Below, in pieces: positions 43,601-48,498 of a stretch of 64,000 bases of DNA; positions within the stretch are counted from its first letter, which is position 1; the number at the start of each line of letters is the position of its first letter. The translations under genes and the position numbers were made by a program. The notes below the pieces were generated by a model. That model had not been told where the DNA came from, made no database searches, and saw nothing but the letters and a program-made list of their open reading frames with translations. The DNA is taken from positions 124,001 to 188,000 of the forward strand of contig CAMBXL010000003.1 in assembly GCA_945871905.1 (NCBI GenBank), written 5' to 3'. This DNA comes from Chitinophaga pinensis (GTDB taxonomy: Bacteria; Bacteroidota; Bacteroidia; NS11-12g; UBA955).

Positions 43601-44496
43601 GTGGCAAGCATAGGACGACCGCCACGCAAAGAATAACACGACAGAAAAATGAAATTAGATATTACGTTTAATGTTTACACGGACGCAAATGGTGGAGACC
43701 CAGACAGCACAAGTCCAACACTTCGCTCATATCATAAAATATTATGGAGTAAACCATTGCCAAACGGACAAACATTGGAATTGGACAACAAAAAAAGTGG
43801 AGCGTATTTATATCACAAATCGGAACTTGGAGAATTCAATTTAGGAAGTGATGCTATAACTCACTCGTACAGAAATCAGACGAGAAAACAATGGTTGATA
43901 AAACAAATTTCAAACGAAGTAAACGAACTCTTTGACATTGGTTCGACAATTGGCGCCTACACACTTTTTCCGAAAAATAAAATAGACAACAAGTTTACAA
44001 TCAATCAAGCTCGTGGAGTAAATAGTTTAATTGACGACCGATTTGACTTGACTTTGGAATGTATCAGACTTTTTTACGAAGGACAACAAAGTCCGCTTTA
44101 CGACACATTTCTAAGGTATAAAAACTTTTTTGACCTGTTTCGGAACTTTAAAGGTTACATTGACTTCTTTTTACTAAATGACCTTGTTGACGAGAGTGAA
44201 AATATTCGGTTTTACTTGCCATTTGACAACTTTAAAACAAAGCCGACATTTACAGACGTTGACGAATATTTAGTTTATAAGAAAAAAGTAACTGACTTCA
44301 TAAATGCACGAAATAAGCGAATTGACAACTATGCTAACAAACAGACGACAGAACAGAATGCCAGCCACTAACAGCCGTTTTGCAAAAGCGGGGGTTTCGT
44401 GCTTCTATGACAGTGAAGTGCTAAATTCAAGCTTTGTGCATCTAATGAAGTTTAGTGCTGAAAATCCCCGCCTTCGCAAAGCGGCAAAACGTTGTG
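43597..44496 (+). mobile_element. integron-cassette-like unit carrying the DUF6994-like gene
   Basis: Begins GTTAGTGGC (43597-43605). The perfect reverse complement GCCACTAAC is at 44364-44372 at the gene's 3' end, followed by a long imperfect palindrome ending AACGTTGTG. Confidence 0.5.
43649..44371 (+). CDS. DUF6994-like hypothetical protein
   Basis: MKLDITFNVYTDANGGDPDSTSPTLRSYHKILWSKPLPNGQTLELD...GEFNLGSDAITHSYRNQTRKQWL recalled as the DUF6994 family; complete ORF. Confidence 0.7.
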   Translation: MKLDITFNVYTDANGGDPDSTSPTLRSYHKILWSKPLPNGQTLELDNKKSGAYLYHKSELGEFNLGSDAITHSYRNQTRKQWLIKQISNEVNELFDIGSTIGAYTLFPKNKIDNKFTINQARGVNSLIDDRFDLTLECIRLFYEGQQSPLYDTFLRYKNFFDLFRNFKGYIDFFLLNDLVDESENIRFYLPFDNFKTKPTFTDVDEYLVYKKKVTDFINARNKRIDNYANKQTTEQNASH

Positions 44497-44531: not shown

Positions 44532-45710
44532 ATGGAAGAAGACAAAAAGAAAACTATTAATGCAAAAGATATTTATTTTAATGATATGGACTATAAAAAT
44601 ATTAATTTTAATTGGGATCAAATTAAATTGAATAATATTATTGAGAATTTAAATAATTTAAAAGATTTTGATTTCAATTATCCTATCTTAAAACATAAAT
44701 TACCTACAACTAGAAAATCTACTTCTGAAACAGCTATTAAACACTTAAAAGAAGCATTTAATAGTGGAAACTTAAATTTTGTACTTGGAGCGGGCATTTC
44801 TTCTGAATTTGGAATTCCAACATGGGATAACCTTCTCCAAAGATTATTAATGACAACTATCGAACAAGAAACTGATAAAGCTTTAGTTTTATCAAAATTC
44901 TTTTCTAAAATATTTAACCCAAGTTCACTAATTGCAGGAAGATATTTAGAAGAATCATTTAAAGATGATAAAATAAAAAATAAGTTTGAAAAAAATGTTA
45001 GAGACGCGTTATATGAAACTTATGAAGAAAGTGCGTAATCTTTAATTGTAGATGAAATTATCAAATTTTGCCTTGCACCAGGAAATAGCCCAAATTTAGA
45101 TGGAATAATAACATATAATTATGATGATATTATTGAAACAAAATTAAAGGAAAAAAATTTAGATATGCCTTTTGAATCAGTATTTGGACAAGCAATAAAT
45201 CCAGATAATAATATTCTAAAAATTCATCATGTTCATGGTTTTTTACCAAGAAATGGAAACATAGGAAGTGAAAATAAAATAACTTTAGGAGAATTTGTAT
45301 ATCATGAGCAGTACAGTAATACATATAGCTGGAATAACATTGTCCAAGTAAATAAATTCAGAGATAAAACTTGTTTATTTATTGGAACTTCACTCTCTGA
45401 CCCAAATATTCGTCGCTTACTTGACATTGCTAAAACACAAAAAAAATCCACTAAGTATCATTATATTTTTAAGAAAAAAACAAACAAAATTTGGTTAAAA
45501 AATTCAATAAATAAGTTAATAGAAGAAAATCCAGAAATTGAGAATGATAAAATCAATATTAATTTAAAAATAGATGAAGCAATAGATTTTCTAATAGAAC
45601 TTAAAAATAGATTTGAAGAAAAAGATTCTGAATCACTAGGAGTAAAAACAGTATGGATTGAAGATTATGACAAAGACATTTCCGAAATTTTAAAGAAAAT
45701 CAGATTATAA
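44532..45710 (+). pseudogene. SIR2-like domain protein interrupted by one in-frame TAA (45036-45038)
   Basis: ORF 44532..45038 (NFVLGAGISSEFGIPTWDNLLQRLL) and ORF 45165..45710 (CLFIGTSLSDPNIRRLLDIAK) are in one frame. The 42 codons between them translate to SLIVDEIIKFCLAPGNSPNLDGIITYNYDDIIETKLKEKNLD with no further stop and contain a SIR2 TxNYD-like motif. Confidence 0.8.
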
Positions 45711-45971: not shown

Positions 45972-46301
45972 ATGAAGGAAAGCGAGGAAATAATACAAGC
46001 ACTTTTGAAATTCAGAAATGAACGAGATTGGGAACAATTTCACAATCCAAAAGATTTAGCATTGGCTATTAGCATAGAGTCTGCTGAACTTTTAGAATTA
46101 TTTCTTTGGAAGAAATCAGAGGATGCTAACCCTGAAAAAATAAAAGAGGAACTTGCCGATATTTTTTCATTTGCATTTTTGCTTGCTGAAAAATATGGAT
46201 TTGATGTTAAAGAAATTGTTTTGGACAAAATCAAAACAAATGGAGAGAAATATCCAGTAGACAAAGCAAAAGGAACATCAAAAAAATACGATGAACTATA
46301 A
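45972..46301 (+). CDS. MazG-like nucleotide pyrophosphohydrolase
   Basis: LLKFRNERDWEQFHNPKDLALAISIESAELLELFLWK...EELADIFSFAFLLAEKYGFDVKEIVLDKIKTNGEKYPVDKAKG: the EExxE/ExxD pattern of all-alpha NTP-PPases. Confidence 0.92.
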   Translation: MKESEEIIQALLKFRNERDWEQFHNPKDLALAISIESAELLELFLWKKSEDANPEKIKEELADIFSFAFLLAEKYGFDVKEIVLDKIKTNGEKYPVDKAKGTSKKYDEL

Positions 46302-48498
46302 CCAAGATTTTGAAATAAATAAAATTGTGTTTAATAATAATGGATTGAATTCTATTCAATCACAATATTTTGTAAGCGAAAATTGGCCTGTAGTTTATAT
46401 TTTAAATGATAATGGTGTATGTCAAGCTTACGTTGGTGAAACCATAGACACTAATTCTCGAATCTTTACACATTTACAAACACCAAGCAAAAGCCATTTG
46501 CAAGAAGCTCACTTAATTTCCAGTAGAAAATTCAACAAATCGGTGACGTTAGATATTGAATCTAATTTAATAAAATATTTACATGCTGATGGAAAATACA
46601 AATTATTAAATGGCAATTTAGGATTGGTAAACCACTCTTATTATCAAAGAGATGAGTTTTATTGGGATATGTTTAAAAATATTTGGAATGGTCTTATTAG
46701 TAAAGGAATTGCCAAGCATAGTTTAGAACATATCTCAAATAGCGATTTGTTTAAGTATTCGCCCTATAAGACCTTGTCTGCCGACCAAAGAAAGAATTTG
46801 ATGCTTATTATTGACGCACTACTTTCTGAAAACAAAAAAACAGTATTGATAGAAGGAGGTGCGGGAACAGGTAAAACCATACTAGCTATTTTTCTTTTTA
46901 AGTTAATGCTAACTTCTGATGAGGATTTTAATTATAGAGAATTCGGTGAAGACGAAAAAGTATTTATAGACAAGGTAAAAAAGTTAAAAATAAAATTCCC
47001 AAATCCTAAAATGGGTTTGGTTATAGCCATGGGGTCTTTTCGAAAAACTATTAAAAAAGTTTTTCGAAACATTAGTGGTTTAAATTCTAATCTTGTTATT
47101 GGTCCTTCAGATTTGGAATATGAATCATATGATATTCTCTTTGTGGACGAATCTCATCGTTTGAGAAAAAGAGTTAATCTTGGCCCATACTTCAAAATTT
47201 ATGACAGGGTTTGTAACGCACTAAAACTTGATAAACTTAACACTTCGGAATTAGTTTGGACTCAATTAAGGTCAAATAAAGTATTATATTTTTACGATGC
47301 TAAACAGTCTATAAAACCTTCTGATGTTGATGCTGTTGATTTTGAAAACTTAAAAAATGCATCTAACTCTATAAATGTCAAATTACATTCGCAGTTTAGA
47401 GTAAAAGGAGGCAATGGATTTGTTGATTTTGTAAATAATTTATTAGACAATACTTTTAAGAATAAAGAGTTCAAATACAACGATAGCAATTATGACTTGT
47501 TGCTATTTGAGAATTTTTCAGATTTCGTTAATGAACTCAGAAAAAAGAACGAAAAACATCAGCTTTCTAGATTCATTGCTGGTTATGCATGGCCATGGAT
47601 AAGTCAGAATAACCCTAATGAATATGATATTGAAATAGAAAATATAAAACTAAAATGGAACTCAACTGCAATTGATTATATAAATTCTGATATTGATGCG
47701 CAAGAAGTAGGTTGTATTCATACTACACAAGGTTACGACCTCAATTATGCGGCAATAATTTTTGGTCCAGAAATAATATACAATCCAATATCAAAAGAAA
47801 TAGAAATAGTTAAGGAAAATTACAAAGACAGAAATGGGACTGCAACAATTCGAGATTTTGCAATACTGAAAGACTACGTAATAAATATATATAAAACTAT
47901 TATGCTAAGAGGTATACTAGGTTGTTATATTTACGCATGTGACGAAAATCTTCGAAATTATTTTAAAAAGCATATCAATTTATATAATAAAAATAAAAAT
48001 CCAATTGTTGAATTATTTGAGTCAAAAGAAATTCAGTTGATTCCATTTGTAAATAGTGTGCCACTATATTCGTTAAAAGTTGCAGCAGGGGATTTGAAAT
48101 TAAATGAAGAATTTCCAACTGAACAATTTATTATGGTTCCTGAAGGCGTTAGAATCACAAAAGACTATTTTGCATGTAAAATAATAGGTAACTCTATGAA
48201 TAAAATAGTGCAAGATGGTGAGATAGGATTATTTAAATGGTACGAAGGAGGCAGTAGAAACGGTTTAATGGTAATTGCAGAATGTACAAATCTTCAAGAT
48301 TCTGATTATAGTTCTTGTTATACTTTTAAAGAATATCATAGTCAGAAAGTTGTCACTGAAGAAGGTTGGCGTCATGAAAAAATTATACTTAAACCAAAAT
48401 CATATGACCCCTCATATCAAGATATAATAATAGATCCAGAATCAATATATGATATACCAACTAAGATAATAGGTATATTCGAAAGAGTAATTGAATAA
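46291..48498 (+). CDS. GIY-YIG-like + DUF2075 (SF1-like P-loop) helicase + C-terminal S24/LexA-like peptidase fusion protein
   Basis: VYILNDNGVCQAYVGETIDTNSRIFTHL (GIY-YIG-like); Walker A VLIEGGAGTGKTILAIFL; Walker B YDILFVDESHRLRKR; FYDAKQSIKPSDV; VGCIHTTQGYDLNYAAIIFGPE; RGILGCYIYACD; C-terminal FACKIIGNSMNKIVQDGEIGLFKWYEGGSRNGLMVIAE...SCYTFKEYHS (S24-like Ser/Lys). Overlaps the MazG stop by 11 bp. Confidence 0.85.
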   Translation: MNYNQDFEINKIVFNNNGLNSIQSQYFVSENWPVVYILNDNGVCQAYVGETIDTNSRIFTHLQTPSKSHLQEAHLISSRKFNKSVTLDIESNLIKYLHADGKYKLLNGNLGLVNHSYYQRDEFYWDMFKNIWNGLISKGIAKHSLEHISNSDLFKYSPYKTLSADQRKNLMLIIDALLSENKKTVLIEGGAGTGKTILAIFLFKLMLTSDEDFNYREFGEDEKVFIDKVKKLKIKFPNPKMGLVIAMGSFRKTIKKVFRNISGLNSNLVIGPSDLEYESYDILFVDESHRLRKRVNLGPYFKIYDRVCNALKLDKLNTSELVWTQLRSNKVLYFYDAKQSIKPSDVDAVDFENLKNASNSINVKLHSQFRVKGGNGFVDFVNNLLDNTFKNKEFKYNDSNYDLLLFENFSDFVNELRKKNEKHQLSRFIAGYAWPWISQNNPNEYDIEIENIKLKWNSTAIDYINSDIDAQEVGCIHTTQGYDLNYAAIIFGPEIIYNPISKEIEIVKENYKDRNGTATIRDFAILKDYVINIYKTIMLRGILGCYIYACDENLRNYFKKHINLYNKNKNPIVELFESKEIQLIPFVNSVPLYSLKVAAGDLKLNEEFPTEQFIMVPEGVRITKDYFACKIIGNSMNKIVQDGEIGLFKWYEGGSRNGLMVIAECTNLQDSDYSSCYTFKEYHSQKVVTEEGWRHEKIILKPKSYDPSYQDIIIDPESIYDIPTKIIGIFERVIE

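Follow-up and report, generated by a model that had tools for sequence, protein, structure and literature searches.

The window analysed here, i.e., the whole stretch of 64,000 nucleotides, contains a two-gene cassette of ~2.5 kb, all features of which lie on the + strand. Its first gene (45972..46301; 109 aa; Pfam MazG-like 1.1e-20) encodes a MazG-like, DCTPP1-type all-alpha NTP pyrophosphohydrolase, and the second (46291..48498; 735 aa) encodes a protein composed, according to its reading frame, Pfam, alignment and a structure model, of three successive modules, namely a GIY-YIG nuclease, a Schlafen group 3 (SLFN-g3) SF1 helicase and an S24 peptidase. A defence role of this cassette is strongly suggested, and the explanation put forward below, which stands at about an even chance of being correct, is that of a mobile anti-phage or anti-foreign-DNA nuclease-helicase gated by LexA-type self-cleavage and accompanied by a DCTPP1-like partner. 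The original prediction, made from the sequence alone, had described both reading frames as an operon with these same domains; the two frames and the 11-bp overlap of the MazG stop by the start of the large gene were verified among the open reading frames of the window, and the domain calls and the operon proved right upon Pfam searches, an alignment of 79 homologues and a structure search.

At the N-terminus of the large protein, the GIY-YIG nuclease domain extends over about residues 30-115 (46378..46635). For the window protein alone the match is 0.031, which is below the Pfam cut-off, and the whole protein receives no call; in the family, the N-terminal segments of 20/20 members match Pfam GIY-YIG (best 2.6e-7), and 78-79 of the 79 homologues retain Y36, Y47, G49, R57, H61, E90, N107 and N109, which upholds the nuclease domain first proposed. 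The following helicase core (residues 182-551; 46834..47943) corresponds to SLFN-g3_helicase, formerly DUF2075 (PF09848; Pfam 2.6e-52), and exhibits a Walker A motif GGAGTGKT, a motif II DEsH and an HTTQG motif; in the 79-homologue alignment, Walker A, D286-E287, Q339, R370 and HTTQG are kept. A phmmer search with the whole 735-aa protein against the PDB returned nothing useful. Foldseek of the full-length model (mean pLDDT 83), a structural check of the kind suggested together with the original prediction, retrieved RecD2, Dna2, Upf1 and SLFN11. Segments with a pLDDT <50 are limited to residues 1-3, the linker between helicase and S24 domain (568-580), the loop 598-610, and residues 670-674.

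The C-terminal domain (residues 591-735; 48061..48495) is of LexA/UmuD type, judging from its modelled fold and from the invariance of the predicted scissile and dyad residues. The Pfam match to Peptidase_S24 is just above the cut-off in the whole protein (3.5e-5), reaches 1.2e-6 with the S24 segment alone, and is found for the segments of 20/20 family members (best 7e-21). Searched against the PDB, a profile built from the S24 segment finds LexA (2.7e-5), with VAAG, GxSM and TxK in register, and Foldseek of the S24 model against the PDB returns LexA, CI and UmuD as the first 32 matches (E from 2e-5), some of these LexA and UmuD structures having been solved on RecA filaments. The serine of GNSM and the lysine of YTFK, pointed out beforehand as plausible catalytic residues, correspond to S635 (G-N/E-S-M; 48193..48195) and K680 (YTxK; 48328..48330), each invariant in 79/79 homologues and aligned with the serine of LexA GMSM and the lysine of LexA TVK, respectively. 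A LexA-type AAG site had been overlooked: the predicted scissile bond A599-G600 (KVAAG; 48085..48090) sits in the low-confidence loop 598-610 (pLDDT <50), with A599 and G600 kept in 79/79 and A598 in 78/79 homologues. The determinants of RecA-stimulated self-cleavage, i.e., an Ala-Gly (or Cys-Gly) bond and a Ser-Lys dyad (PMC8565304), are thus all invariant in the 79 homologues, and recA is encoded in the host genome. As such, the autoproteolytic switch envisaged at first stands at the level of sequence and fold, while self-cleavage itself, its dependence on RecA and the direction in which it would act are predictions. It has also been considered that the S24 domain no longer cleaves and serves as a dimerisation or recognition module, for which the stretch GGSRNG...QDxDxGSxYT specific to this subfamily could provide a binding surface, but the retention of Ala-Gly, Ser and Lys in 79/79 homologues and in the sister architecture described below makes this very improbable.

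Respective to the partner, the metal-binding motif ExxE...ExxD is present as E36, E39, E60 and D63 in 78/78 MazG homologues. The closest solved relatives in the PDB are dCTP pyrophosphatase 1, i.e., DCTPP1 or RS21-C6 (5.4e-18), with a similarity spanning residues 6-109 and thus nearly the full length. Nine residues are identical in the alignment with RS21-C6 and 95-100% kept in the family, namely W20, W46, E36, E39, E60, D63, K86, N90 and Y94. We take W20, W46, E36, E39, E60 and D63 to be the counterparts of RS21-C6 W47, W73, E63, E66, E95 and D98, and K86, N90 and Y94 those of K121, N125 and Y129, these RS21-C6 residues being presumably the ones contacting base, metal and phosphate. The earlier idea that MazG alters nucleotide pools can therefore be sharpened, given this match and these kept residues, to a probable DCTPP1-like pyrophosphatase whose predicted substrate is dCTP or a modified dCTP.

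The association of the two genes is conserved. Among the best 80 relatives, which come from Bacteroidota as well as Beta- and Gammaproteobacteria, MazG lies immediately upstream of the large gene in 77/80 loci, mostly with a 4-bp overlap, and the remaining three comprise two contig ends and one split frame also bearing MazG; wherever the upstream region is visible, MazG is present (78/78). Such a pairing across Bacteroidota, Beta- and Gammaproteobacteria is not due to chance. In a second sample, the S24 domain alone was used as a query against 296 genomes of the class, which avoids picking loci by full-length similarity. The strong group (E up to about 1e-45) comprised 16 frames of ~720-750 aa, 7 frames of ~1125-1151 aa and one further frame of 547 aa; below a gap (next best 1e-13), only short frames of 67-273 aa were found, presumably repressors. 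Thirteen of the 16 loci of ~720-750 aa were examined and all 13 consist of MazG followed by GIY-YIG-SLFNg3-S24, so that the partner proposed from a single locus recurs in the 78 visible and the 13 independent loci. The cassette is common in the class and patchily distributed, with 16 carriers of this cassette and 7 of the sister form among the 296 genomes. Copies also occur in the cultured species Flavobacterium terrigena and Castellaniella defragrans.

Relatives with another modular composition were also encountered. In locus L015 (6986-9168), MazG precedes a 617-aa SLFN-g3 helicase whose N-terminus looks like PD-(D/E)XK (VIVELKQW) and which has no S24 domain. In L198 (2143-5058), from a Halomonas plasmid, a PD-(D/E)XK-looking N-terminus is again joined to the SLFN-g3 core, S24 occupies an overlapping frame of its own (either a frame break or an error), and MazG is downstream, not upstream. 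Neither S24 nor MazG was detected with the GIY-YIG-SLFNg3 proteins of Bacillota, and L197 (414-5668) shows in a row a SauUSI-like protein, MazG and an S24-less GIY-YIG-SLFNg3 protein; the latter locus is a faecal contig labelled "Bacteriophage sp." that looks bacterial. As some S24-less relatives have MazG, the association of SLFN-g3 helicases with MazG is wider than that with S24. In L030 (7677-9889) and L059 (219-2405), the large gene of the cassette is split into two frames and is therefore probably inactive or misassembled. Among viral contigs, single-protein and profile searches found no relative, which means that, within that collection, the system is not commonly carried by phages; the relatives obtained from phage records were all S24-less or partial.

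The S24 subfamily is essentially found in two effectors, namely (i) MazG with GIY-YIG-SF1-S24 and (ii) NUDIX with a SauUSI-like PLD-SF2-DUF3427-S24 protein, two nuclease-helicases that are not related to each other and that each have a nucleotide pyrophosphohydrolase of their own. The second form accounts for 7/7 of the frames of ~1125-1151 aa and for a copy in the same-genus genome G001. Its large protein comprises PLDc_2, ResIII/Helicase_C, DUF3427 and S24 domains, matches the PADLOC model of a type IV restriction enzyme, mREase_IV, over the full model length (5.9e-240), and keeps AAG, GESM and TxK in its S24 module, while the NUDIX partner gives a match to PDC-S07, a defence candidate (8.8e-46). 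Such loci include L014 (4417-8224), L175-L181 and L047 (6379-9747), and in some, e.g., L047, this sister system and the GIY-YIG cassette are no more than a few kb apart. SauUSI, a PLD-SF2 enzyme of the sister type, cuts m5C/hm5C DNA (PMC3874153). The window protein has no PLD or DUF3427 match in Pfam and its helicase is of the SF1-type SLFN-g3 kind, which places it outside the SauUSI family.

The cassette is mobile and has undergone recent horizontal transfer within Bacteroidota. The genomes carrying copies 86-91% identical to that of the window have a MetH of only about 63-65% identity; in genomes with MetH at 66-68% identity, cassettes are only 43-51% identical. The window copy belongs to a tight 14-member clade of the gene tree mixing Chitinophagaceae, Saprospiraceae and others. 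As Bacteroidota and Pseudomonadota copies are cleanly separated on the two sides of this tree (one change), recent transfer between phyla is not claimed. Among 17 genomes of the genus searched, the full-length 735-aa protein occurs only in the window's own genome; the flanks, i.e., a phosphoglycerate mutase-like gene and a rhomboid-like gene, are syntenic in G001, where the same slot is occupied by an AraC-type regulator and a TonB-type receptor in place of the cassette. Around the window locus, a search for integration repeats gave only weak, chance-like ones.

Regarding the genomic context, for which the original prediction had suggested looking at enrichment in defence islands, the two closest genes on either side of 34 cassette loci (136 proteins) were compared with PADLOC at a cut-off of 1e-10; they match 189 models, versus 11 for 122 neighbours of metH, a control drawn from 31/34 genomes after exclusion of three redundant controls. 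Because PADLOC models overlap, 189 being the models matched and not a count of proteins, and because a housekeeping control such as metH favours the claim, more defence genes being expected in any accessory region, these figures establish an enrichment and not its exact size. Together with the patchy distribution and the recent transfer, these defence-rich neighbours support the defence-type role initially put forward.

Some further observations concern the surroundings of the cassette and the window's genome. Just upstream of MazG, a SIR2-like gene (44532-45710, +) resembles ThsA/SIR2 defence proteins in parts; its 393-codon frame is broken by one in-frame TAA (45036-45038), which makes it either a recent pseudogene or the product of a sequencing error. 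The variable slot flanked by the phosphoglycerate mutase-like and rhomboid-like genes also encodes a DUF6994 protein (4.1e-93; 43649-44371, +). Elsewhere in the same genome, a 738-aa frame (G000:C23:2557-4674) presents two tandem C5-cytosine methyltransferase matches.

In the explanation favoured here, the large protein would be an SF1-type Schlafen group 3 motor carrying a GIY-YIG nuclease, with the C-terminal S24 domain acting as a built-in switch. The intact protein would be kept inactive (or dimeric) by this domain until phage replication or DNA damage generates RecA-ssDNA filaments, upon which S24 would cut its own chain at A599-G600 and free an active GIY-YIG-helicase of 599 aa able to unwind and cut replicating foreign DNA. 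The co-translated MazG would hydrolyse dCTP or 5-substituted dCTP and could thereby either starve phage DNA synthesis or keep modified cytosine out of host DNA. Activation rather than inactivation, DNA as the target, the MazG substrate and the anti-phage effect are all inferred. A SOS box (CTAA-N5-TTAG) within 250 bp upstream is present in 3/77 loci and none occurs in the window; any damage response would therefore be post-translational and act on the protein. A search for a conserved promoter element upstream of the cassettes found none.

S24 domains are mainly known from transcription repressors and UmuD, and their cleavage inactivates LexA and CI but activates UmuD. The direction of the switch could accordingly be the opposite, with an intact nuclease-helicase active on invaders and RecA-triggered self-cleavage disarming it upon host DNA damage, so as to avoid self-destruction; the same conserved S24 residues and the precedent of LexA and CI are compatible with it. 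This is a genuine rival, yet a rather unlikely one, as neither the linker nor the cleavage loop belongs to the nuclease or helicase core, so that cleavage would leave the enzymatic part whole, and as S24 is missing from some homologues that share the GIY-YIG and helicase parts, and is thus not needed for the enzymatic part as such. Activation by self-cleavage is favoured precisely because a complete GIY-YIG-helicase would be left; the absence of S24 from some relatives also means that the switch is not essential to all such nuclease-helicases.

The resemblance of the sister system to SauUSI (mREase_IV 5.9e-240, DUF3427) and the cutting of m5C/hm5C DNA by the latter (PMC3874153) invite another scenario, akin to type IV restriction, where the nuclease-helicase attacks modified-cytosine DNA while modified dNTPs are cleared by MazG, or by NUDIX in the sister system, so as to leave host DNA unmarked. 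This scenario is possible by analogy but rather unlikely. In an indirect test, carriers are not significantly poorer in m5C methyltransferases (5/16 versus 136/279, p = 0.20); three PF00145 matches occur in the window's own genome, the cassette of G313 adjoins an m5C methyltransferase, and the GIY-YIG system is devoid of DUF3427. It is quite improbable that the cassette would be a mobile DNA-repair or stress module, i.e., UvrC-like nuclease, helicase, SOS-type switch and nucleotide sanitiser, rather than an immune system: each type of domain is indeed also at work in repair (UvrC, RecD-like helicases, UmuD, MazG/MutT), but the patchy distribution (16/296 class genomes), recent transfer, defence-rich neighbours and restriction-enzyme sister point elsewhere.

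Considering existing catalogues, no model of PADLOC 2.0.0 or NCBIfam covers the large protein and none in PADLOC 2.0.0 covers MazG over its full length; partial PADLOC matches only were obtained, namely Nhi/AbiO in the helicase part and PDC-S14 at the N-terminus. The Nhi model matches the window protein at 2.1e-12 over residues 274-420 only, and filing the protein as Nhi was rejected since a full-length model match is absent. No description of a MazG and large-gene pairing was found in the literature covered, from which subscription papers and preprints are mostly absent. While the single parts are all of known kinds, what is new would be the combination, occurring in two unrelated versions, of a putatively S24-gated nuclease-helicase and an obligate pyrophosphohydrolase. 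More tentatively, the occurrence of one S24 module on two unrelated nuclease-helicases, with RecA-filament-triggered gating and an obligate MazG or NUDIX, may possibly reflect convergent DNA-damage-gated immunity coupled to nucleotide-pool control. If true, RecA-ssDNA sensing would be linked straight to an immune effector without transcription, and an immune nuclease would be gated directly by DNA damage; the shared S24 module and the pyrophosphohydrolase proper to each effector offer a testable general claim on why such effectors need a switch and a nucleotide-pool enzyme.

Compared with known systems, Hachiman (HamAB) and AbpAB are alike in being nuclease-helicase or other systems reported as responsive to DNA damage or phage replication proteins, but they differ in their domains, with neither S24 nor MazG reported in the portions of the sources consulted. 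Nhi and AbiO (PADLOC) are likewise single-chain nuclease-helicase defence systems whose helicase core is partly matched; the Nhi match is nonetheless confined to ~150 aa of the window protein and does not indicate GIY-YIG, S24 or the MazG partner. A response to phage SSB is presumed for Nhi (PMC12904381). With LexA, UmuD and lambda CI, the S24 domain shares the fold, the Ala-Gly site and the Ser-Lys dyad, but unlike LexA, including the non-canonical LexA of Bacteroidetes, it is fused to a nuclease-helicase and no HTH is seen. DCTPP1/RS21-C6 resembles the window MazG in near-full-length sequence, metal ligands and residues that we take to be base-contacting, whereas the latter is co-translated with an effector and dCTP is here only a predicted substrate. 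The SauUSI-like sister differs by its unrelated PLD nuclease, SF2 helicase and NUDIX partner and by the DUF3427 that the window system lacks, but it likewise combines a nuclease, a helicase and the same S24 subfamily with a nucleotide pyrophosphohydrolase as partner gene.
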